DNA from: Rugalucina vietnamica | Taxonomy: Eukaryota; Mollusca; Bivalvia; Lucinida; Lucinidae | Direction: 5' to 3' | DNA: 64,000 nt | Assembly (NCBI GenBank): GCA_964017185.1 | Contig: OZ024879.1 | Span: 24,369,456-24,433,455, forward strand | Part shown: piece by piece, positions 996 through 61,753 of the stretch | Position numbering within the stretch: the first letter of the stretch is position 1 | Layout: each line of letters opens with the position of its first letter | Made by a program: the position numbers and the translations under genes | The notes under the pieces: model-generated | The model's database searches: none | What the model was told of the DNA's origin: nothing | The model's input: the letters and a program-made list of their open reading frames with translations, nothing else

Positions 996-3900
996 GTACG
1001 CTTTTATTATCAACCGCTGCATCAGAAAACCAGCAATCTTCATATGCAAAAACAAAAGCCCAGATCAGCTGTGCAGCTACTGCACAGCTGATAAGTGCTT
1101 TTTGTTTTTGCTTCGCAGATAGTACAATCCCTCTCTTCTTAAATCTGAAATTTCAAGCTTCTATGACTGTACAGGCCAGTTTGTGTCAGACCTCATAGGA
1201 AATCCAGTTTGTTTGTTTTCATACACAAAGGCTCATATATGGTTATTTTCTTTTGGCGATAAATGTATTCAAATATTTCATTTGTGGAGGTTTTTCTTCG
1301 GAAATGAGTTCACTTGTAAGATATCTTGTTATACAATAAAACATCGGTGGAACTGTAAAACATGATTTCCTCAAGTAGACATGACATCATACCTTCCAAA
1401 ATAACTACTTTTATTAAGGTAATATCTGTTCTAATGTTCTGTCCATTTTTACTCTGATCACAAAAAGGAAATTGCTGTGAAAAAAAAAAGAATAAAATGT
1501 TTGAGAAATCTAAAATATGACATTGACATAACTTTCATAATAACTTTCTCAGCTTTTGCCAATATAGCTGTTACTTGTCCAAAGATAACAACTGCATTAA
1601 CAAATCTTTTCAAAATACACAGCTTAATTAATAAATGCAAAAAATACTAAAATTATAGCAATCTTATGTTGTAAAGCAAAATTGCGTGCATTTGTAATAC
1701 AGTAGATTCTTATCAATAATAATAGGCCAAACAGTGGCATACCCCGAAACAGTCTCGCAAATATGCAAATTTGGATTCAGTAAATGATATCTGAACTTTC
1801 AGTCTGGCGTCCAAAGTTAATAAAAACACTTGAAATTGTTGAAAGGTTGCGAATTAACAGACCTTCCCTATCACGAAGATTGTTTACTTTTGACATTTTT
1901 CTTAGTGTACAGAGTGGTTGATATGAAATTAGATAGGCAGATACATTGTACATGTGTACTGTTGATCAAGTAAACATATTTTGTTGTTTTAGCCTACATC
2001 TACATCAGGGGTGAGTTCTACAATGAGGCCTCCAATCTACAGGTCGCCATTAATGAGGTAAGGAAATATATTCTAGAGCGACTAGTTGAGGAAAGGCTGT
2101 CGCATTGTAGTCTGACACCATGTGATCTGACACAAACTGAACAAAAGAAAACTTCAAAGTCTTTGTACACTACTGAGTGTTCTGAGTGATGTTATAAAGT
2201 GAATGTTCTGATGGTTTATTGGATGATATGACCAAATGAGTTTCCTGTGTGTGAAAACAAATTCTGCCTGAACAATGTTGAACTCACCTTGGCCACACAT
2301 TGTGTCATTTAGGTCACAGGTATACAAACAACAAATATGTGACAGTATCTGGCATTTGGGTCTTGTGGAGTCACACTCAGAAATTTACTTTTTCACATTT
2401 TTACAATGTTCAGTATGTTTAGAGTCTGTATCCAAAAGCTTTATAAATGAGCCGCCTCATGGGAAAACCAACAATCTGCATAGGCGAAAACAAAGGCGCA
2501 GATCAGCTTCGCGGTAACCGTGAAGCTGATCAGCGCCTTTGTATTCGCTACATGGATAGTACACTTCCTCTTCTTCTTAAATCTGAAATTTCATGCTTCT
2601 AGCTCTTTTCTGTGCTTGTACAGGCCTGTTTGTGTCGGACCTGTTGGTTTTCCCACGAGGCGGCTCAAATAGGGCTGACGACTAAGGAGAAAAATAGAGA
2701 AAACACCCACCACCCTCAAGTTGCATCTCTGACAGGGGTTTTAATTGGAAAGAAATTAATTGGCCTTGGAAAAACGTTTGTAACACTGAGTTATACTGCC
2801 CTTTTCTATAGTTCTTCACAGTGAATGTTGTCTAAATATTATGGAAACGGAAATTTGAAAGCTCTTGCAAGAAATTTCCAACCTTTCTTATTAGACAGCA
2901 TTTTGAAACTAGTGACTGAGTGTGCAAAAATCCATTTAACATCGATTGCAGATTTAATTTCCAACTTTAATTCATGTTTTGTGACGTCAATGTCGTACAC
3001 CCACAAGACCCCAAATTGCAGAAAACATCACATATAATCCAGACTGCCCTCACATGACCTTATCTATTGACTGTAAATTTAAAGAATGAAAGGTTCATGT
3101 AACAAGATTATCCTGTATCCTATCATGTAAAGAATCTTTTTGATCCACAGGCCTGATTTATAGCAACTGATTATATGCAGTATATCCTTGATTCTGTTCA
3201 CAGGCTTATGCAAAAGGTCTGATAGGAAAGAATGCGTGTGGCAGTGGCTACGACTTTGACGTGTATGTCCACCGCGGGGCTGGAGCTTATATCTGCGGGG
3301 AGGAGACCGCTCTGATTGAGTCTCTGGAGGGGAAGCAGGGGAAACCCCGTCTCAAGCCCCCATTCCCTGCTGATGTGGGTGTGTTCGGGTGTCCCACCAC
3401 AGTGACTAATGTAGAGACTGTGGCTGTCACTCCAGTAAGTACTGTATTAGGTATGACAGCTTGAGTGGCTGTGTGTTTGATGTGTAGAGACTGTGGCTGT
3501 CACTCCCGTAAGTACTGTATTAGGTATGACAGCTTGAGTGGCTGTGTGTTTGATGTGTAGAGACTGTGGCTGTCACTCCAGTAAGTACTGTATTAGGTAT
3601 GACAGCTTGAGTGGCTGTGTGTTTGATGTGTAGAGACTGTGGCTGTCACTCCCGTAAGTACTGTATTAGGTATAACAGCTTGAGTGGCTGTGTGTTTGAT
3701 GTGTAGAGACTGTGGCTGTCACTCCCGTAAGTACTGTATTAGGTATGACAGCTTGAGTGGCTGTGTGTTTGATGTGTAGAGACTGTGGCTGTCACTCCCG
3801 TAAGTACTGTATTAGGTATGACAGCTTGAGTGGCTGTGTGTTTGATGTGTAGAGACTGTGGCTGTCACTCCAGTAAGTACTGTATTAGGTATAACAGCTT

Positions 3901-6900
3901 GAGTGGCTGTGTGTTTGATGTGTAGAGACTGTGGCTGTCACTCCCGTAAGTACTGTATTAGGTATGACAGCTTGAGTGGCTGTGTGTTTGATGTGTAGAG
4001 ACTGTGGCTGTCACTCCCGTAAGTACTGTATTAGGTATGACAGCTTGAGTGGCTGTGTGTTTGATGTGTAGAGACTGTGGCTGTCACTCCCGTAAGTACT
4101 GTATTAGGTATGACAGCTTGAGTGGCTGTGTGTTTGATGTGTAGAGACTGTGGCTGTCACTCCAGTAAGTACTGTATTAGGCATAACAGCTTGAGTGGCT
4201 GTGTGGTTGATGTGAAGTTAAGCAGAACTAGGACGATCCTCAAGCCCAGCACATTTCTTCATTTATGAGGACTTGGTTGTAAAAATAATTCAAATTTTTT
4301 TCTATGGCCATTCCTCCTATATGAGCTGCTTGTGGGAAAACCAACAATGTGACACAAACCGGCTTGTACAGTCACAGAAGATGGCTAGAGGCTGGAAATT
4401 TTGGATTTAGAATGTAAAGGAATTGTACTATCCGAGTTTGCCAAAACAAAGGCGCTGATCAGCTTCACGGTTACTGCGAAGCTGATCTTCGCCTTTGTTT
4501 TCGCATATGCAGATTGTTGGTTTTCCCATTGGTAGGCTCATATATAGATCTCACTGATCAAAAAGGGTATCTTTGAGTGGTGAAAGAATGGTTCAGTCAG
4601 TACTGGTTAACTGCCACTGGTAGGCTTGCCCAGGAACAGTTTGGTTAGGATCACTCACTTGTGGGGTAGTGATACAGTACATGACTGGATTTGATACCTA
4701 CCTCCCCAGTTTAGTGACCTTGGACAAGACATTTGAGCAGCCTCACGAGAAAAACCAACAATCTGCATAGGAGAAAACAAAGACGCAGATCAGCTTCGCG
4801 GTAACCGCGAAGCTGATCAGTGCCTTTGTTTTCGCGACTCAGATAGTACAATTTCTCCTCTACTTAACTCCAAAAATTCAAGCTTCCAGCCTGCTTCTGT
4901 ATCTGTATGGGCAGGTTTGTGACAGACCTGTTTGGAAACCACGTTGTTGGTTTTTCCATGTGGTTCATTTTTAGTTTCCCATTAATATACCCAGGAAGCA
5001 GTGGCTTCATTCTGAAATTACTGAAAAAGTTTTGAGTAGGATGTTACGCAAAACAAACCAAAAATATTCCTTGAATATCCATTATTTTTTGTTCTATTGC
5101 AGGCTATATGTAGGAAAGGTGGAGATTGGTTTGCGTCATTTGGTCGTGACAGAAACAGAGGAACTAAGGTAGGGGAACTAACTGCTTTCATTACTAGACA
5201 GTTGAATACTGATGCATCACAGTGCTCAGTATGATATATGCCATGATGCGAGAAAATCGGTCTTTGGGCTTTATGGCCTGTCCGACACAAATTGAACTGT
5301 ACATTCATAGAAGAAGGCAAGAAGCTTGAAATTTCAGATTAAAGAAGAGGGATTGTACTATCTGTATATGCAAAAAAAACGTTTTTCTCATGATGCGGCT
5401 CATATTTCTCAGGAGCTTTTGACCACATTAACACAAACTGGGTTTCAGCAGTCAGAACAATGCCAGAAGCCTGAAATTCCATGTTTGACAGGCAGAGGGA
5501 TAGTCCCAACATAACTGAAACATTGTTGACTCGGACATATAACCACAAGGGGAGTGTGGTGGTCAAGTGCTAGAGTACCAAACTTGGAAGCAAGAGGTCA
5601 GGTATTTGATACTTTCCTCTCTCCCCATAAAACTGGTTAATGTCTAGGAGGCATTGGCTCTGTCTTATTGTCGAGGACATTAAAATACAAAATGATCAAA
5701 CAAAATTTCTTGCTTTTAGCTGTTCAACATCTCCGGCCATGTGAACAATCCGTGTACAGTTGAGGAGGAGATGTCTATACCATTGAAGGAGCTGATAGAG
5801 CGACATGCCGGGGGTGTGATAGGGGGCTGGGACAATCTCCTAGCTGTCATCCCCGGGGGATCCAGTGTACCACTTATACCTAAAGAGTAGGTAGCATTAA
5901 TTGGTGTACAAATGGAAATTTAGATAACAATACTCATCTCATCCTATCCAATAGCTTTTAAGTGTACTGGTTAAGTAATTTGTCATGTAAACTAACAGTC
6001 ACAGGTTTGTTCCTGGGCTTCTCCTGTCTTTGGGATTAGATTTTTAAACCCAGGGTTGACATAACCGTTAGTGTAACCTTAAACCCTAAGTCAATCAATC
6101 AAAATGTCCTATCCAACTAATGAATTCTTGTAGAAAATTTAATATTAGAATCAGGTTTTACACTTAAAAACAAATTTTAAACTGCAAGTTGCCTTCTAAG
6201 CAGTACAGCCAAGCTAGTGCTTGTTAGAAGCCCTAAGATAGACTTTGACCTGATGGTTCTCCTAAAATGTTGGCACTCAAATGTATCATATTGGCAGTGC
6301 AATTAGGTATGTACATGATATTCTGGAGACCTGTGACAAAGGAGCCATGACGTGAGAAAATCGGTTTTCGGGACCAGATGTGACACAAACCAGCCTGTAC
6401 AGTCACAGAAGCAGGCTAGAACATTGAAATTCCAGTTTTAAGGTAAAGAACCATAAAAACCGTGGCGCTTAAAGGTCCGTGCGTCGCGAAGAACGAAATG
6501 CCATAACGTCGCGCCAATGACATCGTTTTCAAGATGGCGTCGGCTGTATGTGTGTGGTCCGAACACAAGGTAAATATCGACAGAAGCAAAGAAACGGGTC
6601 GATTTTATTGTGAATTTACGAGCATACGCATTACAATGAGAGAGAAAAGAAAGGTCCAGAAAAAAGTAACGGCGACAGTCGAATGCCGTTTCCAATTTTA
6701 TGCATATTTCTTAATTAAAGATTACGAGCGTGTGCTTCCGGATTATAGTAGGCCTATAGAACTGGTGACATAAAGACAAAAATGAATTTATAGAATTTCC
6801 AGAAATCTGATGTAAGTTTGTATTACGCACACCCATTCATTTCCGACGGCTTTATCGTGTGGAAGGTGATGTGCGGGACTCGAGGATCGAACCCGCCAAA

Positions 6901-15489: not shown

Positions 15490-18400
15490 TCACACTGTCA
15501 AACCCCATTATTCAGATTGTCAGTTAAGTGCACTGTCAAACCCCATTATCCAGTGATGTGGTATGTATTGTCAGTCAAGTGCAATGTCAAAACCCATTAT
15601 TCAGAGATGTGGTATGTATTGTCAGTTAAGTGCTGTCGAACCACATTATCCAGTGATGTGGTATATATTGTCAGTCAAGTGCACTGTCAAACCCCATTAT
15701 CCAGTGATGTGGTATGTAATGTCAGTTAAGTGCACTGTCAAACCCCATTATCCAGTGATGTGGTATGTATTGTCAGTTAAGTGCTGTCAAACCCCATTAT
15801 CCAGTGATGTGGTATGTATTGTCAGTTAAGTGCACTGTCAAACCCCATTATCCAGTGATGCGGTATGTATTGTCAGTTAAGTGCACTGTCAAACCCCATT
15901 ATCCAGTGATGCGGTATGTATTGTCAGTTAAGTGCACTGTCAAACCTTATTATTCAGTGATGTGTTATGTATTGTCAGTTAAGTGCACTGTCAAACCCCT
16001 TTATCCAGTGATGTGGTATGTATTGTCAGTTAAGTGCACTGTCAAACCCCATTATCCAGTGATGTGGTATGTATTGTCAGTTAAGTGCACTGTCAAACCC
16101 CATTATCCAGTGATGTGGTATGTATTGTCAGTTAAGTGCACTGTCAAACCCCATTATCCAGTGATGTGGTATGTATTGTCAGTTAAGTGCACTGTCAAAC
16201 CCAATTATCCAGTGATGTGGTATGTATTGTCAGTTAAGTGCACTGTCAAACCCCATTATCCAGTGATGTGGTATGTATTGTCAGTAAAGTGCACTGTCAA
16301 ACCCCATTATCCAGTGATGTATATATTGTCAGTCAAGTGCACTGTCAAACCCCATTATCCAGAGATGTGGTATGTATTGTCAGTTAAGTGCACTGTCAAA
16401 CCCCATTATCCAGAGATGTGGTATGTATTGTCAGTTAAGTGCACTGTCAAACCCCATTCTCCAGAGATGTGGTATGTATTGTCAGTTAAGTGCACTGTCA
16501 AACCCCATTCTCCAGAGATGTGGTATGTATTGTCAGTTAAGTGCACTGTCAAACCCCATTCTCCAGAGATGTGGTATGTATTGTCAATTAAGTTCACTGT
16601 CAAACCCCATTATCCAGTGATGTGGTATGTATTGTCAGTTAAGTGCACTGTCAAACCCCATTATCCAGTGATGTGGTATGTATTGTCAGTTAAGTGCACT
16701 GTCAAACCCCATTATCCAGTGATGTGGTATGTATTGTCAGTAAAGTGCACTGTCAAACCCCATTATCCAGTGATGTGGTATATATTGTCAGTCAAGTGCA
16801 CTGTCAAACCCCATTATCCAGAGATGTGGTATGTATTGTCAGTTAAGTGCACTGTCAAACCCCATTATCCAGAGATGTGGTATGTATTGTCAGTTAAGTG
16901 CACTGTCAAACCCCATTCTCCAGAGATGTGGTATGTATTGTCAGTTAAGTGCACTGTCAAACCCCATTATCCAGCGATGTGGTATGTATTGTCAATTAAG
17001 TTCACTGTCAAACCCCATTATCCAGTGATGTGGTATGTAGTATCAGTTAAGTGCACTGTCAAACCCCATTATCCAGTGATGTGGTATGTATTGTCAATTA
17101 AGTTCACTGTCAAACCCCATTATCCAGAGATGTGGTATGTATTGTCAATTAAGTTCACTGTCAAACCCCATTATCCAGAGATGTGGTATGTATTGTCAGT
17201 TAAGTGCTGTCAAACCCCATTATCCAGAGATGTGGTATGTATTGTCAATTAAGTGCACTGTCAAACCCCATTATCCAGTGATGTGGTATGTATTGTCAGT
17301 TAAGTGCTGTCAAACCCCATTATCCAGTGATGTGGTATGTATTGTCAATTAAGTTCACTGTCAAACCCCATTATCCAGTGATGTGGTATGTATTGTCAGT
17401 TAAGTGCACTGTCAAACCCCATTATCCAGTGATGTGGTATGTATTGTCAATTAAGTTCACTGTCAAACCCCATTATCCAGTGATGTGGTATGTATTGTCA
17501 GTTAAGTGCACTGTCAAACCCCATTATCCAGAGATGTGGTATGTATTGTCAGTTAAGTGCACTGTCAAACCCCATTATCCAGTGATGTGGTATGTATTGT
17601 CAGTTAAGTGCACTGTCAAACCCCATTATCCAGAGATGTGGTATGTATTGTCAGTTAAGTGCTGTCTAACCCCATTATCCAGTGATGTGGTATGTATTGT
17701 CAGTTAAGTGCACTGTCAAACCCATTTATCCAGTGATGTGGTATGTATTGTCAGTTAAGTGTTGTCAAACCCCATTATCCAGTGATGTGATATGTATTGT
17801 CAGTAAAGTGCACTGTCAAACCCCATTATCCAGTGATGTGATATGTATTGTCAGTTAGTTATGTGCACTGTCAAACCCCATTATCCAGTGATGTGATATG
17901 TATTGTCAGTTAGTTATGTGCACTGTCAAACCCCATTATCCAGTGATGTGGTATGTATTGTCAGTTAAGTGCTGTCAAACCCCATTATCCAGTGATGTGA
18001 TATGTATTGTCAGTTAGTTATGTGCACTGTCAAACCCCATTATCCAGTGATGTGGTATGTATTGTCAGTTAAGTGCTGTCAAACCCCATTATCCAGTGTT
18101 GTGATATGTATTGTCAGTTAGTTATGTGCACTGTCAAACCCCATTATCCAGTGATGTGATATGTATTGTCAGTTAAGTGCACTGTCAAACCCCATTATCT
18201 AGAGATGTGGTATGTATTGTCAGTTAAGTGCACTGTCAAACCCCATTATCCGGTGATGTGGTATGTATTGTCAGTTAAGTGCACTGTCAAACCCCATTAT
18301 CCAGTGATGTGGTATGTATTGTCAATTAAGTTCACTGTCAAACCCCATTATCCAGTGATGTGGTATGTATTGTCAGTTAAGTGCACTGTCAAACCCCATT

Positions 18401-19999
18401 ATCCAGTGATGTGGTATGTATTGTCAATTAAGTGCACTGTCAAACCCCATTATCCAGTGATGTGGTATGTATTGTCAGTTAAGTGCTGTCAAACTCTATT
18501 ATCCAGAGATGTGGTATGTATTGTCAGTTAAGTGCACTGTCAAACCCCATTATCCAGAGATGTGGTATGTATTGTCAGTTAAGTGCTGTCAAACCCCATT
18601 ATCCAGAGATGTGGTATGTATTGTCAGTTAAGTGCACTGTCAAACCCCATTATCCAGAGATGTGGTATGTATTGTCAGTTAAGTGCACTGTCAAACCCCA
18701 TTATCCAGTGATGTGGTATGTATTGTCAGTTAAGTGCACTGTCAAACCCCATTATCCAGTGATGTGGTATGTATTGTAAGTTAAGTGCACTGTCAAACCC
18801 CATTATCCAGAGATGTGGTATGTATTGTCAGTTAAGTGCACTGTCAAACCCCATTATCCAGAGATGTGGTATGTATTGTCAGTTAAGTGCACTGTCAAAC
18901 CCCATTATCCAGTGATGTGGTATGTATTGTCAGTTAAGTGCACTGTCAAACCCCATTATCCAGAGATGTGGTATGTATTGTCAGTTAAGTGCACTGTCAA
19001 ACCCCATTATCCAGAGATGTGGTATGTATTGTCAGTTAAGTGCACTGTCAAACCCCATTATCCAGTGATGTGGTATGTATTGTCAGTTAAGTGCACTGTC
19101 AAACCCCATTATCCAGAGATGTGGTATGTATTGTCAGTTAAGTGCTGTCAAACCCCATTATCCAGTGATGTGGTATGTATTGTCAGTTAAGTGCACTGTC
19201 AAACCCATTTATCCAGTGATGTGGTATGTATTGTCAGTTAAGTGTTGTCAAACCCCATTATCCAGTGATGTGATATGTATTGTCAGTAAAGTGCACTGTC
19301 AAACCCCATTATCCAGTGATGTGATATGTATTGTCAGTTAGTTATGTGCACTGTCAAACCCCATTATCCAGTGATGTGATATGTATTGTCAGTTAGTTAT
19401 GTGCACTGTCAAACCCCATTATCCAGTGATGTGGTATGTATTGTCAGTTAAGTGCTGTCAAACCCCATTATCCAGTGATGTGATATGTATTGTCAGTTAG
19501 TTATGTGCACTGTCAAACCCCATTATCCAGTGATGTGGTATGTATTGTCAGTTAAGTGCTGTCAAACCCCATTATCCAGTGATGTGATATGTATTGTCAG
19601 TTAGTTATGTGCACTGTCAAACCCCATTATCCAGTGATGTGATATGTATTGTCAGTTAGTTATGTGCACTGTCAAACCCCATTATCCAGTGATGTGGTAT
19701 GTATTGTCAGTTAAGTGCTGTCAAACCCCATTATCCAGTGATGTGGTATGTATTGTCAATTAAGTTCACTGTCAAACCCCATTATCCAGTGATGTGGTAT
19801 GTATTGTCAGTTAAGTGCACTGTCAAACCCCATTATCCAGAGATGTGGTATGTATTGTCAATTAAGTTCACTGTCAAACCCCATTATCCAGAGATGTGGT
19901 ATGTATTGTCAGTTAAGTGCACTGTCAAACCCATTTATCCAGTGATGTATTGTCAGTTAAGTGCACATTCAAACCCCATTATCAAGTGATGTGGTATGT
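15490..19999 (+). repeat. 51-bp satellite array, about 88 units
   Basis: Tandem 51-bp units (GCACTGTCAAACCCC, then ATTATCCAGTGATGTGG, then TATGTATTGTCAGTTAAGT). Variants are 49 bp (GTGCTGTC instead of GTGCACTGTC) and 55 bp (GTTAGTTATGTGC). Since 51 is divisible by three and lacks stops in several frames, long repetitive frames appear, including a 495-codon one reading SVKCTVKPHYPVMWYVL per unit. Frames in the other phases and on the other strand are also open, so I do not call a protein. Blocks of variant units recur: a 9-unit (459-bp) shift near 16322/16781, and a block of about 430 bp at 17701 copied at 19184. Confidence 0.95.
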
Positions 20000-21529
20000 A
20001 CACACTAGACTTATTTCATTGAACTGGTTGACATTTGAACATGAACAAGTATTGTTCAGTTTTGACCTCAGATGCATCAGAAGATAGTAGCATGTGAAAG
20101 GATATTCAGATTGAAACTGTACAAATACTCTGTGTGTAACCAAAGTGTTACGGAAAACTTGAAGTATTTCATACTGATTTACCTTGCACATGCAACTTCA
20201 TGGATTTGTCGATCTTTTGACGCATCTGAGGTAAAAATGGAGCTTTACACACATGATAAATGATGGACCCCAGTCACAAGGTCACTGATGCAGGGTTCAG
20301 CTTGGTCCTGTCAATATAGCATGAGGCTTCAGTTTAATATGTTACTGACTGACCTTACACTTTGGAGACGATGTTTGTATTCTAAAAGCCACACTCAAAC
20401 CAAAGAGAATAATTGAGAAGCTGCAATCTGCATATTCAAAAACAAATATGCAGACCAGCTGTGCAGTAACTGTACAAATGATCAGCGTAGCCTAGCGTCT
20501 TTGTTTTTGCTACATAGGTAGCACAACCTCTCTTCTTAGATCCAAAATTTCAAGCTTCTAGACTGCTTCTGAGACTGTACAGATGGGTTTGTGTGGGTCC
20601 AGATCGGAAACCCAAATTATTGGTTTTCTCATGTGTAGTCTCGTTACATGTCATTATTATATTATTTGCAAAATGCATTATATATATAAATTTTGAAACA
20701 AGAAATTTTCACCAGAATTACTTAACACGTTACAAATACATGTACCATTTATAATTTGGTGGATAAATGGAATGTAGAACACAGACCACAATTAATTTTA
20801 CTATATAGTTTTATAATTTGTTTTGCCTCCCATCTTCTTTACTGCCATTGCAAGCTTTGTTCTGAAGCTTTTCTCACAGTCTACACTGTATGCCAGTACT
20901 TTTATGTAAGATTAAAATATTGATTGACCGGCTAGTTTGGGAGATATCTGCCAATTTCTAAACATGCCGGTGTCTTCTTGAAGTATCCGCATGTGTGGGA
21001 GCAACCGCATAAGGGGTTGTTTGGTTGGCAGTCCAATACCTGAAATTACCAAGTATCTCCACTAATTTACATTTCCTGAAAACTTAGACAATATTCTAAC
21101 CAAAATGACATAAAAACCAGCAACTCAAGATGATTTGTCAACTTAACACCCCAATAAATAGGGAAACTATTTTGTGTGGAGGTATATCCGTATCGTGTTC
21201 TACCATTCAGGGCAAGTAATTGTGATCTGATGCCTATCTGTGATCTATAGCGGGCAAATGTAAACAAATTGGTTTGATTAGAATTTTGCTTTCAAGTTGA
21301 TATATACCGCATTGTGTCCCAATGTGATAGTATATACTGTGAAACGGGTAATGCAGACTGTAAATCTCTGCCCATAAACCAATGTTTAGTATCTCATGAT
21401 ATAATGTTGTGTTTATGTTGTACAAACATGAGATCACCATACTGTCCAGAGCACTAGACTGGTCTGTTCTGTTAACGAAAAGCATAAGGAAGGCATAGTG
21501 TTTGAATGAAAAAATCGCTCCATTTTTAG
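20000..21529. other. Non-genic stretch with one MITE-G copy
   Basis: Apart from the MITE-G copy at 20409-20634, I see only AT-rich single-copy-looking sequence and short chance frames. Confidence 0.45.
20409..20634 (+). mobile_element. MITE-G copy 10
   Basis: Diverged copy with CAGACCAGCTGTGCAGTAAC, GCGTCTTTGTTTTTGCTAC, AAAATTTCAAGCTTCTAG, GGGTTTGTGTGGGTCC and TTGGTTTTCTCATGTG in family order. Confidence 0.72.
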
Positions 21530-31946: not shown

Positions 31947-32091
31947 GCAAATTTACTGAATACAAACAAACATTGTGTGGCCAACACATGGTTTAAAATG
32001 ATGTTTAAATTCCAAACAGGCGCACCAGGCGGGTGTTGTCGTCATATATACGTTCAAACATTTTGTCATCGTCTTCGTAAAGCAGGATTTA

Positions 32092-32170
32092 ATAGTCGAA
32101 ACCGCGGTATGGCCCATCATCTTTCTCATTAATGCGTTCACTGCTCTTAAAGGATCTCAGTTTTAATTTT
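32092..32170 (+). mobile_element. Fragment of the hammerhead-bearing repeat
   Basis: AATAGTCGAAACCGCGGTAT and GGCCCATC match the 3' half of the hammerhead units at 58794 and 59170. CACTGCTCTTAAAGGATCTC follows as in those units. The 5' core is not conserved, so this copy is unlikely to be active. Confidence 0.7.
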
Positions 32171-32426
32171 TATTTCTGACAATTTTAGTACGACGACATG
32201 TCTCCGAAAAAGAATATTTCGAAATGGTTCATCCCAATCAAACAAGTACATGCAATTCACATATCTAGATCTGCGAAATAATGGTTAATGTAGGCAATGA
32301 TCAGGAAATGGCACAATCAGAAAGAAATTCCCACTCTAAAACCAGAGGATGGAAAACCTAGACTTATAAAAAGAAAACGTATCGTACTAAGTTGAGTGAG
32401 CATGTTACCCAAACTTAACTAAAATA

Positions 32427-45660: not shown

Positions 45661-47411
45661 AAATAAAATGGTATTTGATATAATATAAAAGTCTAAATTC
45701 CTTCTGGTATTGTAACCACTTCTTCTTAACCATAATTGCATATTTCTATTGATGTCATATGTCAGATGGGGTCATGAGCGATGTGTGGAATATTCTTAAC
45801 TCAAATAATATTTCCCTTTTTTCAGGTTTCGTAAGTGCTTAACATCATCACATGGGGCTTTGATACTTTTCTAAGATTGACGAATGCTTGCATGGTGAAA
45901 CCACACAACCAATAAAACATGGACCACAGAGGGTTCAAATCATTTATAAGCAATTGCAGTAGAATATACAATAATACTATATATTGTAAGCTAAAGGCAA
46001 AGACTGACAATTACTTTTCATTTCATACCCATAGATCATATGTTACAACATATAGATTTCATTCTCACATGGAACAACTTTTGAAATGTATATGATTGAC
46101 TGGGCAAATTTATCACCTATGAAAATGAATAGAAGACATCAGTCAAACACGCACAAATTTTCTTCAGGACTGATGGACTGTTCTTGAAAATGACTAAACA
46201 CATTCAGATAGGTAGCGTAATTTGTGTTTGAGAATAAAAATAAAACTGAGATCTTTTTTTAAAAAACATTACTGGTATCACTACCTACAGATGATTTGGA
46301 AGTGCTTGTTAAGGAAACATTCTATAGCTTTCTCTCATACTAAACTTCATATCTAACATATGCTGCATGCTAATCCCTACCTGTCCATGAATATTTGCAT
46401 TCACTTGTTTTGCCCATTTGTCAACTTGTTTTGTCACTTACAAAATATCCCATTGTGGGCCTTCAAAGTCTCCTTCACCATTTGACTGACACTAATATAC
46501 CTAGCACCACCTGTCTGGATGTATGTGGTCGTTTGTAATGTTTACAATTTCGCCACTAGACATACAGACAGTGGAAAAGTCATACCTAAGGGCGGTAGAT
46601 TGAGGCTTTTTCCTTTTAAATAATAAACTGGTGCAGCCAGTGGTATCTGACGTTTCAGAGGTTGTTCAACCCTCGTATGTGATGTATGAAATGTAATCTT
46701 TGGTTATAAATTGAAATGTGATGGTCAGCTTCAGTCTTTGCGTTAAGGGCATGGTATATTATATATATGTTTTTTTTTATAATATATAAGGCTTCAGTGT
46801 ATATTTTTCTACAGTATACTATGGTTTGAACTCTCTTTGGTTAGTTCCGTAGTGGTTTCAACACACTATCATCTGTCAATCTATGCGAAGAAACACCGTT
46901 CCGTAATTAGCACTTAATGAACTAAAAAAGAAATGCTATTCTACTGAAGTAAGAACAACGCACAGCAAATAGTGACCCCATATGACAGATATGATATATG
47001 CAACCAGTGGTCTTGAAAAAAAAAACAATCGATAATAATAAAGAAGTAGCAGCTGTGATATCAGAAATAATCTTGATATTGTTGCTTTAGATGTTTTGAA
47101 TTGTCTGCTGACGAATTTCAAATGGTTTTATGCTTTTTCCAGAACATGCTTAGACCATCCATCTAAGGTGTTAAGTGATAAGCTTTGTCTAGAGGCAGAA
47201 ACAGGCCATCTTTTTGTCACAGCCCTGGGTTTGATTCCGTGCCTCTCCGGTCTTTTGAATGAGACAATTTTATAATGACATAATACCCAAACGCACTGTG
47301 AACTTTCTCCACTTTGAAGAACTCGAAATCCCACTGATTTTCATTTTATCCCAACAACTCTTGCAGTTAAATTAGATCCGGTGTAAACCTAAAGCCGCTC
47401 TGCTGCTTTTA

Positions 47412-48903: not shown

Positions 48904-49137
48904 TAAGCTTTTTTTATTTATGAATATATTTTTGTTGGATGTAACACCATGTGAGCTATGCCATGAGAAAACCTTTCTTTGAGATCTCCAATGAGGTTGG
49001 AGATAAGATGTGGCTGTTATAAGTCTTTGTTTTCACATATGCAAACAGCAGGTTTTCCTATAATACAGATCAGGTCTCGGAACTTTATTTTTATAATATT
49101 CTTAAATTTTAAACAAATCTACACCAGAAGATACTTA

Positions 49138-51441
49138 ACTAATTGTTATGAACCACTGCAGAAGCTGGGGGTGAGGTTATGGCCATGTAAAACCGGTTTA
49201 AGCCCGCCAGTAACTTTGTGTTACTGATCGTTCCAAGTCGATACTTCTGTGGTGGTTCTTTTTGTTTTATGTCTTGGTGTTTTAAAAAATTTTTCGTGCT
49301 GTTGGCGCCTTATGTATGTTTTCATATTTTTAGTTAAGTTAAGGTAACTGAGTGGCCACCTATTGGGAAAATAGCTGCTCATTCGGCTTACGATTTGTTT
49401 CATGGTATATGTACCTGATTGTTAGTTTGGTTTTTTCCCACCTCGGTTTTTGGAGTGGGAATCTTTTTCTGATTGCGCCTTTTCCTGATCTTTGCCTACT
49501 TGTACCTTTTTATATCAGAGTTCTTGTGGTTGTGCCGTGTGGCGGCCCTAAAAAGTCTCCCCGTACATCCATTTAATGCTCTTATTTTTCCAATCCTTAG
49601 GGATTGCTTGCAATCAGTTTGTATTTTCCTATCTCTACTTCAAATAAAAATTGGTTTTGGTCAATTAAAAATTCTGGTGAGGTGCTCAGTAAATTGAAGT
49701 GTAGAGGGTTCCGTGCGACAAGCTTGTCCACATATGATTTTTCTACTCTGTATACAACATTACCACATAATCTAATTAAAGAAAAACTTCTGGATTTGAT
49801 AGAGTGGACCTTCAAAAGGGCATTAAAAACTATGGTTCACTTTATTTGGCATGTAATGACAGAAAGGCTTTTTTCACTTCCTCTGACCAAAGTCGGTATA
49901 CACTTTGGTCATGTCAGAATGTATGCGACGCCTTATCCTATCTCCTTGATAATATTTATATAAGATTTGGGACCAAGTTATACAGACAAATTGTTGGAAT
50001 TCCGATGGGTACAAATTGTGCACCTCTCGTAGCTGATTTATTTTTATACTGCTACGAAAGAGATTTCATGGATTCTCTTAACCATGATAATCAAGCTGAT
50101 GTTATCGAGGCTTTTAATTCCACATCTAGGTACCTCGATGACCTTTTGAACATTGACAACCCTTATTTTGAAGGTATGGTCAATCAAACTTCAGTTGAAC
50201 AAAGCCAATATCTCAGATACTGAAGCCCCCTTTTTAGATCTACATCTTTCTGTTGTAAATGGATTAGTTTCTTCTAAAATTTATGATAAGCGCGATGACT
50301 TTGATTTTGATATAGTAAATTTTCCTTTTTTGGACGGTGACGTTCCTCGTCGTGCTTCTTATGGTGTATACATTTCGCAACTTATTAGGTTTGCTAGAGT
50401 CTGCAATCATGTTACAGACTTCAACGCTCGAAATAAATGTTTAACGGCAAAACTTCTCCAACAGGGCTATCGGTATCATAAACTTCGAAAAACATTTTCT
50501 AAATTTTATCGTAGACACTATGAATTGATTTCCAGATATAATGTTGGGTTAAAGACGCTTTTAAGTGAGGGCCTTTCGGAACCTGAATTTTATGGTGACT
50601 TGGTTTACAAATTTAAGAAACTTAAAGGAATTAATGATTTTTCTTTTCAGTTCAGAAAAATCATAACACGTTACAGACGTATAGGTTATAACTTAAATGT
50701 TATGCGACAGTCTGCATGCTTAGTTTTTAACCCAATCATGGTTGATAACTATGCTGCCTTCTTTAATTGCACGCCGGTGGGTCGGGCGTCAGACTCTTTG
50801 ATGGCCCCGACATAAAGCTATTTATTTTAGTTCGTTGGGGCCGGAGCTTCTTGTCTGTTGCTTGGCCCACCGGGGTCCAACTGGTGTTTTTCTTTTGCTC
50901 CGGAGTTAGTAGGTTATTCGGCGCCCAGGGATCTCCATCGTCGGGCAGCTTACTCAGTCTGTGAGTCCTGGTTTTTGATTCATCAGGATGTTTATCATGA
51001 TTTATTTGTTTGTTCTTGATGATTCATTGACTAGTTAGAGATTCACCACGAGGACCGAATAACTAACTAAATGTTATGAACCACTGCAGAAGCTGAGGGT
51101 GAGGTTATGGCCATGTAAAACCGGTTTAAGCCCGCCAGTAACTTTGTGTTACTGATCGTTCCAAGTCGATACTTCTGTGGTGGTTCTTTTTGTTTTATGT
51201 CTTGGTGTTTTAAAAAAATTTTCGTGCTGTTGGCGCCTTATGTATGTTTTCATATTTTTAGTTAAGTTAAGGTAACTGAGTGGCCACCTATTGGGAAAAT
51301 AGCTGCTCATTCGGCTTACGATTTGTTTCATGGTATATGTACCTGATTGTTAGTTTGGTTTTTTCCCACCTCGGTTTTTGGAGTGGGAATCTTTTTCTGA
51401 TTGCGCCTTTTCCTGATCTTTGCCTACTTGTACCTTTTGAT
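49138..51441 (+). mobile_element. Penelope-like retroelement with direct long repeats (PLTRs), broken
   Basis: Two direct repeats of about 370 bp (49138-49513 and 51069-51441), nearly identical, bracket a reverse-transcriptase region at about 49690-50815. Recognisable parts are YDFSTLYTTLPHNLIKEKL, QIVGIPMGTNCAPLVADLFL, RYLDDLLNIDNPYFEG and a C-terminal thumb-like region. These are Penelope-type RT motifs (YLDD-type catalytic box). I do not see a GIY-YIG endonuclease. The RT reading is interrupted, so this copy looks dead. The close similarity of the two direct repeats suggests a fairly young insertion into the 13-kb element. Confidence 0.82.
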
Positions 51442-55590: not shown

Positions 55591-55849
55591 GTTGTAACAG
55601 GTGACAACCTTCTTGGTTGGTGTCACGGAGTGTGGTCGCTAGGCCCAGTGGCTACTAACCTCCAGCTGGGCTCTTGGCGAAAACGTGAGTTCTTTAACAG
55701 GGATGGGATAGAGAGCCTGTAACAATATATTAGAACAATATATTTAATGATGATAAATGCCAAAATGTAAGGTTTACAAAATAAATGCCGATGTACAATA
55801 CAATGGCGATGTAAACAGAGTGAATCAATGATGGGAAACTTGTATAAAT

Positions 55850-56120
55850 AAAATAAAACTGAGATCCTTTAAGAGCAGTGAGCATATTTTCGAGAATAGT
55901 GATGGGCCATACCGCGGTTTCGGCTATTCAAGCCTCGTCAGTGACCCTTTAGATTTGGCAATATGGAGCCAAAGAGAGTTACAGTAATTTTTCAACTTTC
56001 AGCAGGCTAGTCGATACAAAGACTAGTATAATCAATATGGTGCCAAATATATTGAACCTTGGTTAGACCAATAGAAATTTTCTAAATTCTCAAAATATCC
56101 TCTCTGATCTTTCTGAAAAC
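55850..56120 (-). mobile_element. Hammerhead-bearing repeat unit, reverse copy
   Basis: The minus strand shares GATCAGAGAGG(A/G)TATTTTGAG, TATTTGGC(A/C)CCAT and TCTTTGGC(T/G)CCATNTTGCC with 58980-59160, then the hammerhead, then CACTGCTCTTAAAGGATCTC and AGTTTTATTTTTAT. Confidence 0.75.
55904..55947 (-). ncRNA. Hammerhead ribozyme, type I, copy 1
   Basis: The minus strand reads stem I GGGTCA, core CTGACGA, stem II GGCT-TGAAT-AGCC, core GAAA, stem III CC-GC-GG, cleavage triplet GTA, stem I TGGCCC. All invariant core bases are present and stem I pairs over six bases (one G-U). The very short stem III is the form known from Penelope-like elements and retrozymes, where two copies act together. 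Confidence 0.8.
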
Positions 56121-57268: not shown

Positions 57269-57699
57269 AACGTAATAATCTGGTGTTTTATACTTAGAAT
57301 TTATAGTGGACAAATGCAAACAAATTATACTCCTCAAAATAATTTAAAGGCCAGAAATTTTATTTAGCAGATTTTGTGAATGTCGAAATAATGCATTTTA
57401 TTTTATGATTGTATAATAAATGTTCTATGTGTACCCTAACCAATAAACCCGAATTAATAAGTAACTAACTTCCAAAATTGGCCATTTTACACATAGTGGA
57501 GCTGCTTAATGAGAAAATACTTCAGTTAATGATACAAGCATGAAATTTTCACCATATGTTCTTTACATGAAACACATTAAATTCTGATCTCTGGCCACTT
57601 GAAATTCCGCCATTTTCAAGATGGCCGCCAAAAACAAAATGGTCGGCAGTTGTGAAAGGGGTGCATGTAGCAAATTGCTCATATCTTAGTTTGTTTTCA

Positions 57700-58400
57700 T
57701 CAAAGAACAACAATATTAGTACCAAAATGAAGCTAAATGAGTGTTCTTTGAAACAAAGTTCCAATATGCAAATAACCTTATGAATATTAATGAGATCTTA
57801 CTGTTTTGCTTAAAAATTGAGAAAAAAAAAAAAACATTTTATTTTCTAGACGATGTAAAATGTTAAATGAAATGGATAACTATGGCTATGATATTGCTAG
57901 ACCATAAATTATCATAAATTAACAAAATCTAATTAGCATGTTCATGAATATTCATTTTAAAACATTTAAAGACTTTGTATGCCCTTATCTATCAGTTTAG
58001 TTTAAAAAGTCCATACAGTTAATTGCTTAATATAGCTTAGGGACTGTTCATCATAGAATATCAGTATTGATACCAAAATGAAGAATAATGATTGTTCTTT
58101 CCAATGGAGTTCAAATATGCAAATTTACTTCATTTGCATATTTATGAATATTAAAAGGTCTTATTTTGTTGCCCAAAAACTTGAAAAAAAAAAAAAAAAA
58201 CAACAACAAAAAAAAAACAACATCTCATTCTCTGAATGATGTAAAATGTTAAATGAGATTGATAACTGTGGCTTTGATATTTCTACACCATAAAGAATCA
58301 TTAATTAACAACAACCAATTAGCATATTTATGAATATTCATTTTTAAATACTTCAAGACTGTATCAGTTTAGTTAAGAAAGTCCATTCTGTAAATTGTCT
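57700..58400 (+). repeat. Two tandem copies of an AT-rich repeat of about 355 bp
   Basis: CAAATATGCAAAT, TATGAATATTAA, GATGTAAAATGTTAAATGA, GATAACT(A/G)TGGCT, TAATTAGCAT-like and TCAGTTTAGTT words recur in order in two diverged copies, each with an internal A run. Confidence 0.75.
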
Positions 58401-58793
58401 ATAAATATCACGTTCATTGTAAAATAAATGTCATTAATACAAGATATATGTCATTGTACTTTCATTCTAAGCTCGCACGTATTCACTGGCTAACTGAATA
58501 TCAAAACGTAATCATCATATAAAACGCATGTTGATCCCTAAAGTGCATACCTATGCATATATGGAAGCTAAAAATTGACAATTTATGTTTGTAGTGGGCT
58601 TCCCACGACTAAATTAGTCCCCATCAATTATCTGCTTGCATCTACTAAGTCTGTCGACTGATCATATCATAATCATATCCTTTTTATAGTCCTTTGTCCT
58701 CATCTGAGGGTTGGACTTGTTTGACTAGTCTCCTTCTGATAACAGTTGCAAAATTACAGCATTTCTCTTTGGCTCCATGTTCCCAAATCTAAA

Positions 58794-58837
58794 GGGTCAC
58801 TGAAGAGGCTTGAATAGCCGAAACCGCGGTATGGCCC
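58794..58837 (+). ncRNA. Hammerhead ribozyme, type I, copy 2
   Basis: Stem I GGGTCA (58794-58799), CTGAAGA (58800-58806), stem II GGCT/AGCC with loop TGAAT (58807-58819), GAAA (58820-58823), stem III CC-GC-GG (58824-58829), T and A (58830-58831; cleavage after A58831), stem I TGGCCC (58832-58837). The variable core position is A instead of the commoner T, which the CTGANGA consensus allows. Confidence 0.85.
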
Positions 58838-59169
58838 ATTACTTTTCTCACAAATATACTCACTGCTCTTAAAGGGTCTCAGTTTTATTTTTATTTGCTA
58901 TTACTGCAGCTGGTGTTGTGCCGTGTGGCGGCCCTAAAAGTATCCCCGTACATCATTAATAGTGTAGATTATATTTTCCTTTTGGTACTTTGAGATCAGA
59001 GAGGGTATTTTGAGAAATCAGAAAATTATTATTGGTTAAGATTCATTTCCCAACCAACGTTTACTGTATTTGGCCCCATTTTGATTAAACAAGTCTTTAT
59101 TATTGACTACCCTGTTAAATGTTGCAAATTTACAGCAATTTTCTTTGGCGCCATGTTGCCAATTCTAAA

Positions 59170-59213
59170 GGGTCACTGAAGAGGCTTGAATAGTCGAAAC
59201 CGCGGTATGGCCC
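59170..59213 (+). ncRNA. Hammerhead ribozyme, type I, copy 3
   Basis: Same layout as copy 2, 376 bp downstream in the same direction: GGGTCA, CTGAAGA, GGCT-TGAAT-AGTC (one G-U pair kept in stem II), GAAA, CCGCGG, GTA, TGGCCC. Conservation of every core base alongside a pairing-preserving change supports a functional RNA. Confidence 0.85.
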
Positions 59214-59274
59214 ATCACCTTTCTCACAAATATACTCACTGCTCTTAAAGGATCTCAGTTTTATTATTATTCTT

Positions 59275-60480
59275 TGACGACCTCTCCACTCTGAGCGATT
59301 CTTCTACACTTCATCCCATGATTTTCTTAGCTTGCCGGATCTATTCTGTGCAACTACATTTAGCTTGCGTACTTGAGAAATAAAGCCTTTAATGCGCTCT
59401 ACATGTCCATACCATCTCATCTTGCTGGAGCGAAGCACTACATCTATATCCTGAAGTCCAAGCTTTGAGAGAAGGGAGTCTGAGCTTACTTCATCATTCG
59501 CCTTGAAATTACAGATCCAGCACATCATTGCACGGTCATTGCGCTGCAGGCGACAAAGTGTAGCCTGTCATTGCCCAAGTTTCTGCTGCGTGTGGCAGTA
59601 CATAAGTTGAATACACTCTACCTCTGGCCAAACGTGGCAGATTGCGATTTGTGTGGAAATGGAGTAGTTGGTGGAACTTGCCCTAAGCCGATTTGCAGTA
59701 CGTGACTGCAGCCAGATCACAACCTCCGCCAGCAGAAAGCATGTCTCCCAGATAACACAACTCTGGTACAGCCTCAACTTTTTCGTCATCAACTAGGACC
59801 TCCTTCACAAGCCTTCCATCTATGAGACACGCCTTTCCTAGGCAGCCAGCACATCTGCAGCTGAAATCGAGATCACGGCGCGTGGAGCATTTGATTCCAC
59901 TGCATTTCTTGTGGATCCAGGACAAGCATCCATCACAGAAGACGGCATTTCTTCCTACACCTGTCTGACAGACGCCACAGGGATTCTTTCCAGATTTTTT
60001 TCAGAAGGTTCAGATTGAGGCCAGAGATCATGAACTTTGTATTCCCCATGTTCACTCAAAGAACTTTCCTCTCCATCTCTGCTGTCCAAGTCTTCAACTT
60101 AACGGGTAGTTCTTCCATGGACTCGACAATGTCATATGATAAGTCATCTGCATACAGCAGAACCCAAGGGCAGCCTGTGCGGAACTCCCTGGATAAAGCC
60201 TATAGAACAATGATGAAGAGTAGCGGGCTAAGGACAGAGTCTTGATGAACACCTACTTTGACACCAAACTCCTCACTGTATCCACTGCCCTCTCTAACCC
60301 TGATTCTCATGATCTTATACATGGACGGGAGCAGACGCACTAGTCATTCGTCATTTCTTAGTTTCGCATTGCCAACCAGATTACATCCCTCAGGACTCCA
60401 TTAATTGCTTTCTTCAGATCAACGACGGCCATGTAAGGCAGCTTGTTAGTGCCCAAGTGCTTCTCTTGTATATGATAAAC
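59275..60480 (-). mobile_element. LINE fragment (RT, PHD-like zinc finger, C-terminal region), decayed
   Basis: On the minus strand, from 60480 down: YMAVVDLKKAINGVLRDVIW, GVHQDSVLSPLLFIIVL, then WVLLYADDLSYDIVESMEEL (the YADD catalytic box of reverse transcriptase). A cysteine-rich PHD-like segment follows (CGVCQTGVGRNAVFCDGC, SWIHKKCSGIK), then VEAVPELCYLGDMLSAGGG and finally IDVVLRSSKMRWYGHVERIK with GKLRKSWDEV. This order is common in one group of invertebrate LINEs. Several stop codons interrupt it, it lacks the 5' end, and its 3' end abuts the hammerhead repeat. Confidence 0.78.
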
Positions 60481-61753
60481 ACATCAATCAGTTAAATAAA
60501 AAAATATAATAATTTGTATTTACCAGTACGGCTCATTTCAAGCATACCAGAATTGGCGACAACATACAGCTCCGTTTCATTAATAACATACCCCTGCAAT
60601 GTCGCAAAATAAATTGACCCCGCACCCTACATTGCATGGCTCATTGCTGGATGGTTATTAGTCTGGCCTGGATGAAACTTCTACAATTTGTGTATATATT
60701 TATGTGTGTTAAACTGGTAGTTTGTTTATATTGATCGTGAGCAGTCCGATTGGACAGGAAGCTGCTTTCGGCGTGTATCAAAATTCTGGTAGATTTCATG
60801 TCAAGTTTTCAACTTTCGGCGATTGGTATTATGTAAGTACTGTGAATATTGCCAGTTTCTGACATGAATGTTGTTCATTGGCATCTATTGTAGATACCTT
60901 AAACACTGCTGGGAATCACGTGATACGCTATGTTTATGATATGTGCAAATTGTAAACAAGAAGCCGCCATTTTCCACCGGGTCTAGGTAAGTCTATCGAG
61001 TTTTCTTTCAAATGCTGAGGGATAATGATGGATGAATATGCCCAGTCCATGCAGATACATCAGATATATTTAACTATGTGCGAGCTAATCTTTCAAAGTG
61101 TTTTGTTTGTGTAAACACCTCATTCCCATCATCAAAATTGTTTGTTGCCATGTACACCAAATATTTATTTTGGGCCTTATTCATTCTTCCAGCAACAATG
61201 CGTCCTTTCTTAGAGGTAAAATAACATTTTTTTTCAAAGGACAATTACCTCCATTTTACAGAAATATGCTAAGTGCCACATGAAAAAAGATAATCAACAT
61301 CATTGACATTGCATCCCTATACACATGCAATGTGGATTGATACCCTCCACACTAAAACAAAAGTCATCATGTTTCTATTCTTTCGTCAGCCTGTATTGAT
61401 TGCTAATGCACCAGTCCTTTGTAACCATTGCCCCCCCCCCCTCACACATACCTACGGTGAAGGGTGGGGGATAGCCGGGCTTAAGTGCAGAGCAATTACT
61501 TGTCGAGTGTATCCGCAGTGCAGGGGGGATTACGAGGTTTTTTATGCATTAGGATCCTTACTCCAGGGCAATTTTCTATTTCTAAGGTGAGGCCAAAGAG
61601 CAAAATTTTGACCCCCCCCCCCCAGTTTGCCCCCTGTGTGTGAGGCTTATAGCAGGGCACTGAAAGCAGAAATGCCACAATCACCGCCCTTCCCCGTAGG
61701 TGGATGAGCAGTGGTTACAAATGACTTGTGCATAATTGCAGCTAAAATATGAT

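Follow-up and report, generated by a model that had tools for sequence, protein, structure and literature searches.

The window analysed here, a stretch of 64,000 nucleotides of the genome of the lucinid bivalve Rugalucina vietnamica, contains a pair of hammerhead motifs which, in our judgement, probably belong to a self-cutting retrozyme that is copied from an internal start, likely by a Penelope-like reverse transcriptase (RT), and that has been captured by a DNA transposon with terminal inverted repeats (TIR). We infer cleavage, circles and the use of this enzyme as parts of one life cycle. The retrozyme would be a non-autonomous retroelement without coding capacity. Its transcript is predicted to undergo self-cleavage at the two hammerheads and, judging from published animal retrozymes, to yield an RNA circle of about 376 nt. 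Reverse transcription would make new copies from a fixed internal point, some 64 nt downstream of the cleavage site, and the mapped ends and homogenised repeats suggest that the template is circular or otherwise monomeric and that copying proceeds around it to a varying extent. The enzyme would most likely be supplied by an abundant Penelope-like element that shares a 41-nt block with the retrozyme. At this place one insertion was captured by the TIR transposon.

Both motifs of the pair (Table 1) contain GAAA, the palindrome ACCGCGGT and a GTA ahead of the expected cut, and in both the palindrome is followed by an A at the expected cut. Their stem I is GGGTCA/TGGCCC, with six pairs, and their stem II has four pairs, GGCT/AGCC in copy 1 and GGCT/AGTC, with one G-U, in copy 2. 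A first-pass annotation of this DNA had described two type-I motifs of 44 nt in the same direction, 376 bp apart and with intact cores, a G-U replacing a G-C in stem II of the second copy, a palindromic stem III in both copies and no encoded protein. All of this is found again on the + strand, where no open reading frame of at least 100 aa is listed in 58736-59271. Its retrozyme-like reading also holds in kind, for the unit size, the palindromic stem III, the copies and the stem II covariation, but it had missed the enclosing transposon, as well as the third motif and the copies at 32084-32175 and 46233-46257. The window pair amounts to 1.4 units, and its two repeats today show 91.2% identity over 160 bp. 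GC content is 34-41% in the window stretches, the cut-to-cut unit being AT-rich by sight; a GC content below 50% without coding capacity is as in known retrozymes. Elsewhere in the window, a 51-bp tandem repeat is present about 88 times (15516-20000) and a 73-bp one eleven times, with 98% matches (3410-4214).

Table 1. Features of the window discussed in the text
Feature	Position	Strand	Remarks
Hammerhead motif, copy 1	58794..58837	+	44 nt; predicted cut after 58831; CTGA-GA from 58800; from the sequence
Hammerhead motif, copy 2	59170..59213	+	44 nt; predicted cut after 59207; CTGA-GA from 59176; from the sequence
Predicted monomer or circle, cut-to-cut unit	58832..59207	+	376 nt; putative product
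First 160-bp repeat (R1) of the retrozyme	58736..58895	+	3' boundary from comparison with other insertions
Second 160-bp repeat (R2) of the retrozyme	59112..59271	+	59271 is the retrozyme 3' end
41-nt block in the retrozyme (40 nt there)	58915..58954	+	19 nt beyond R1 end
Third hammerhead motif, CTGACGA variant	55904..55947	-	inside a retrozyme copy spanning 55846-56110
5'-truncated retrozyme copy	32084..32175	+	ends at the family 3' end
25-bp fragment resembling the retrozyme 3' end	46233..46257	-	weak
TIR DNA transposon carrying the retrozyme	57494..60567	+	3' part missing in the window copy, lost after 60567
Shortened Penelope-like element	49136..51441	+	family assigned from architecture and RT motifs
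Pseudo-LTRs of the Penelope-like element	49136-49513 and 51064-51441	+	378 bp, 98.9% alike
RT fragment of the Penelope-like element	49780..50223	+	Pfam RVT_1
41-nt block in the Penelope-like element	49529..49569	+	15 nt beyond the element's 3'-end point

Among the checks proposed in the first-pass annotation were a scoring with the Rfam covariance models and a search for other genomic copies with conserved cores. The former came out negative, with hammerhead scores below threshold: no Rfam family reached its gathering score in the window, and no Rfam hammerhead family was returned for 58400-59500 even at E up to 10. This miss is presumably explained by the short palindromic stem III. In the predicted monomer folds, stem II and part of stem I are formed and the core bases are paired elsewhere; in amphibians, hammerheads whose stem III is weak are more efficient at cleavage in the dimeric form (PMC7229834). 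The loose core pattern is by itself unconvincing as evidence against chance, with four matches in the window versus 1.68 expected in shuffles, 9 of 100 of which reach four. As to the second check, copies are abundant. Indeed, the stricter pattern CTGANGAN{8,24}GAAACCGCGGTA has 6,640 exact matches in the genome (3,307 + 3,333; 1.09 Gb, 47 contigs), compared to 0 + 1 for its reversed control.

The stricter pattern leaves stem II free, so that this stem is open to testing. The first motif and block listings were drawn from contig C1 only, and pairs were counted in 95 of the 100 listed motifs, five with another spacer length being left out. The second pair of stem II is A-T in 46 motifs, G-C in 41, G-T in three and non-standard in five, and 356 of 380 cells are paired, versus a mean of 335 and a maximum of 343 in 1,000 shuffles; since the sequences are related, this apparent covariation counts as support and gives no probability. 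Neighbouring motifs on the same strand lie 361-382 bp apart in 14 cases, the other close spacings being 90 and 596 bp. The sequences thus point to a type-I hammerhead with an intact core, in many copies and in tandem repeats within the 150-450 bp range, with Rfam negative. The open helix is stem I, in which the motif starts and finishes, and a plant LTR retrozyme, with a type III hammerhead in its LTRs, was rejected on this ground.

Insertion ends were mapped on copies chosen by motif alone. In 23 of 25 independent insertions (seven of eight motif-sampled copies, nine of ten arrays, four window places and three further insertions) the family sequence ends 59-69 nt past the cleavage site, and the departure from the family follows a stretch like CTCAGTTTTAATTTTTATT. 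The two exceptions are L050 and L075; the tally excludes the L032 row, which ends at 108 and lies in a transposon-borne array, as well as the second copy in each of L056 and L057. The 5' ends are variable: among ten arrays compared by eye, seven extend past the fetched stretch and three start at differing points. A fixed 3' end away from the cut site, together with variable 5' ends, is expected from target-primed copying that starts internally. The template must have been closed or multimeric, because nearly all copies cross the cleavage site, whereas no more than about 64 nt could be copied in this way from a linear monomer released by self-cleavage. The pattern is in keeping with reverse transcription that begins at a fixed internal site, on a template either circular or monomeric in some other way.

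The likeness of repeats bears on the nature of this template. R1 and R2 are 97.5-98.8% alike within one insertion, versus a mean of 84.3% and a maximum of 93.8% between repeats of different insertions (88 comparisons); both repeats were available from no more than three insertions, which limits the evidence for homogenisation. Of 14 pairs of neighbouring motifs, 11 are identical, the shuffle mean being 3.1. Such homogenised repeats favour one monomeric, hence circular, template, although homogenisation could have come about by other means.

The context of the window pair was established from the 30 best-matching copies of a 546-bp stretch. The window copy and most of these copies have long flanks in common, often of more than 3 kb. 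Comparison of 10-kb stretches delimits, in the copies with both ends, an element of about 4.2-4.6 kb, roughly 4.3 kb, that starts with TAGTGG and finishes with CCACTA (ACACTA in one copy), and whose inverted ends extend over about 740 bp with 87% identity. Matching 3-bp flanks, taken as target duplications, were found in all nine copies tested. The shared flanks and the duplications imply that the pair arrived at 57494-60567 with the transposon, and show that it is cargo which the TIR transposon captured and multiplied along with itself. Also carried is a LINE-like fragment in antisense orientation, whose match to a PHD finger falls slightly short of the Pfam cut-off. The transposon at this place is non-autonomous. 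In another copy (L033:3892-4982) two retrozymes lie head to head, the second inverted beside the first and bordered on either side by TGTC, a probable 4-bp duplication.

Alignment of 28 of the 30 copies (all but L022 and L028, which overlap within one array) gives a mean difference of 5.9% in the retrozyme part. Both hammerhead cores are kept in 16 copies, one in 11 and none in one. The 22 core sites have five changes, whereas sets drawn at random from the other sites average 18.1; a value as low occurs in 255 of 20,000 random sets and in 393 of 20,000 composition-matched ones. Core sites are therefore less changed than other sites, and the effect is modest.

The second retroelement that concerns us, at 49.1-51.4 kb, is assigned to the Penelope-like elements from its architecture and from motifs of the RT fragment that we take to be Penelope-like. 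The fragment matches RVT_1 with E 0.011 and 15.8 bits, below the curated 29.6, and a search of solved structures with it gave nothing significant (best E 0.32). Head-to-tail copies are indicated by five neighbouring junction pairs 4,223-4,279 bp apart, so that an apparent RT, with RVT_1 below its cut-off, and a head-to-tail arrangement with pseudo-LTRs are both found in this putative Penelope-like element. The junction pattern has 379 matches in the genome and two in the control. Among the best 40 of 2,306 candidates, 39 are junction copies from elsewhere, which align with 178-181 of the 241 query bases at 99% identity, and the best 150 of 13,344 candidates for the RT fragment are all at least 94% identical; these near-identical copies indicate that the family has recently been active. 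Eleven of 13 copies share a single 3'-end point, a count that leaves out the intact junction 49394-49600; of the two misses, W32290 stops 14 nt earlier and L045 continues, by eye, to the same end. No GIY-YIG match lies near the junctions on C1 and C2 that were compared by eye (best 150 of 451 candidates). Head-to-tail GIY-YIG matches found at C15:425918-437860, 3,893 bp apart and in open frames of 964 aa, are probably canonical Penelope-like elements of another family. Each pseudo-LTR has a weak twister-P1 match (49195-49259 and 51123-51187; 20.8 bits, E 0.099 and 0.028). We did not accept a twister ribozyme there and treat the match as a lead, the score being far under the gathering value of 67.2 and three pairs of one helix being non-standard. 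The twister-like hairpins vary in diverged copies, yet remain paired by eye.

The link between the two elements is the 41-nt block, which is 95% alike between the window retrozyme and the Penelope-like element and 100% alike in several retrozyme copies. It has 7,275 genome matches with at most two mismatches, and its control none. Of 42 exact blocks listed for an initial part of C1, 11 are accompanied, at the retrozyme spacing, by an exact hammerhead motif. Fourteen exact blocks were fetched, namely 13 without a motif at this spacing and one from a tandem Penelope-like array; ten of the fourteen belong to the retrozyme and four to the Penelope-like element, and none falls outside these two element types. 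Between retrozyme subfamilies (six versus two copies) the conservation of the block is 0.950, versus 0.839 elsewhere in the internal part, and the only 40-base windows that reach 0.950 overlap the block (20 of 496). From the matched place of the block beside the 3' insertion point of both elements, we infer that the Penelope-like RT mobilises the retrozyme. At L090, one of the four fetched Penelope-like cases, the Penelope-like sequence starts with the block, its usual upstream part being replaced. A basal stem shared around the block was rejected because it did not pass the flank-shuffle control (306 and 237 of 1,000 shuffles were as good), and four matches to the block core in viral contigs, with 22-27 of 41 positions alike, were taken as chance.

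An internal start of this kind is known from a Penelope protein of anole (Frangieh 2024, PMC11167929), which begins copying 111-118 nt into the ORF, the hammerhead cut being at 26, and which requires RNA up to 172 nt. The start thus lies 85-92 nt past the cut in anole and about 64 nt past it in the retrozyme, and beyond the start the RNA needed in anole reaches another 54-61 nt, while the retrozyme block runs to a point some 59 nt away. This makes a close parallel, as an analogy between different elements: like the anole element, the retrozyme would have an internal start downstream of a hammerhead, required RNA past this start and tandem copies, but the anole element is autonomous and codes for RT and endonuclease, whereas the retrozyme is non-autonomous.

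Several other readings of these data have to be weighed. That the tandem copies derive from uncut multimeric transcripts of tandem loci, cleavage and circles being uninvolved in the copying, seems to us unlikely. In the anole system, insertion persists when the hammerhead is mutated, and in vitro the protein works mainly on uncleaved RNA (PMC11167929), which speaks against a need for circles, and gene conversion, or a recent multimeric source that was already homogenised, could account for the likeness of repeats. However, repeats are much more alike within than between insertions, for which a single monomeric template is the better explanation, and neighbouring motifs have variants in common. 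We consider it highly improbable that the motifs are simply the hammerheads of a Penelope-like pseudo-LTR, with no separate retrozyme. Hammerheads with a short stem III do occur in Penelope-like elements, and two of the eight motif-sampled copies, L052 and L056, adjoin Penelope-like sequence. Nevertheless, the window pseudo-LTRs have neither a CTGANGA...GAAA core by eye nor an Rfam hammerhead match, the retrozyme has its own unit and its own 3' end, and Penelope-like fragments are so common that the adjacency may be chance.

The block could be a promoter or a captured fragment that has no role in reverse transcription, as the failure to demonstrate a shared fold around it would allow. We find this rather doubtful, given that its position relative to the 3' insertion end is matched in both elements and that its conservation is the highest in the unit. 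As for the window pair itself, the chances seem even that the TIR transposon simply carries it along as a dead passenger from which no functional RNA circle arises. It is common to the transposon copies along with their flanks, and just over half of the aligned copies retain both cores; on the other hand, the window copy has both cores intact, and the lower rate of change at core sites gives modest support to function.

The self-cutting, internally copied retrozyme that we favour is of a known kind. Like the non-LTR retrozymes of the mussel Mytilus galloprovincialis, as described by Cervera and de la Pena 2020 (PMC7229834), it has a type I hammerhead, a low GC content, thousands of copies and no coding capacity, and its family spacing of 361-382 bp compares with tandem repeats of 350-390 bp in the mussel. 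Cleavage and circles have been demonstrated in the mussel and are predicted for the Rugalucina vietnamica retrozyme. It differs from the mussel retrozymes, as they are described there, in its mapped fixed 3' ends, in the block in common with one Penelope-like family and in its amplification inside a DNA transposon. With the plant LTR retrozymes described in the same source it shares a non-autonomous, hammerhead-bearing nature; the plant ones, with type III hammerheads in LTRs and circles of 600-800 nt, spread through circular RNA.

What is new is the link to one retroelement family. Penelope-like elements have been proposed as strong helper candidates on general grounds (PMC7229834, PMC7761336). 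In titles and abstract beginnings, subscription papers being outside the scope of the search, we found no report of such a shared site; the same literature gave no match to an RT motif or to bivalve hammerhead satellite DNA. A broader proposal, which we hold at about even odds, is that animal retrozymes owe their mobility to a specific Penelope-like element acting in trans, through an RT-recognition RNA beside the start, and that the circularity given by the hammerhead is functional. If true, circularity would have a function in the life cycle, because the block, lying beyond the 3' end, survives only when copying goes on for more than one round. Capture by a DNA transposon is a second way for a retrozyme to spread. 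On the question of which enzyme spreads animal retrozymes, the block points to a concrete partner family and to an RNA site open to in vitro assay.
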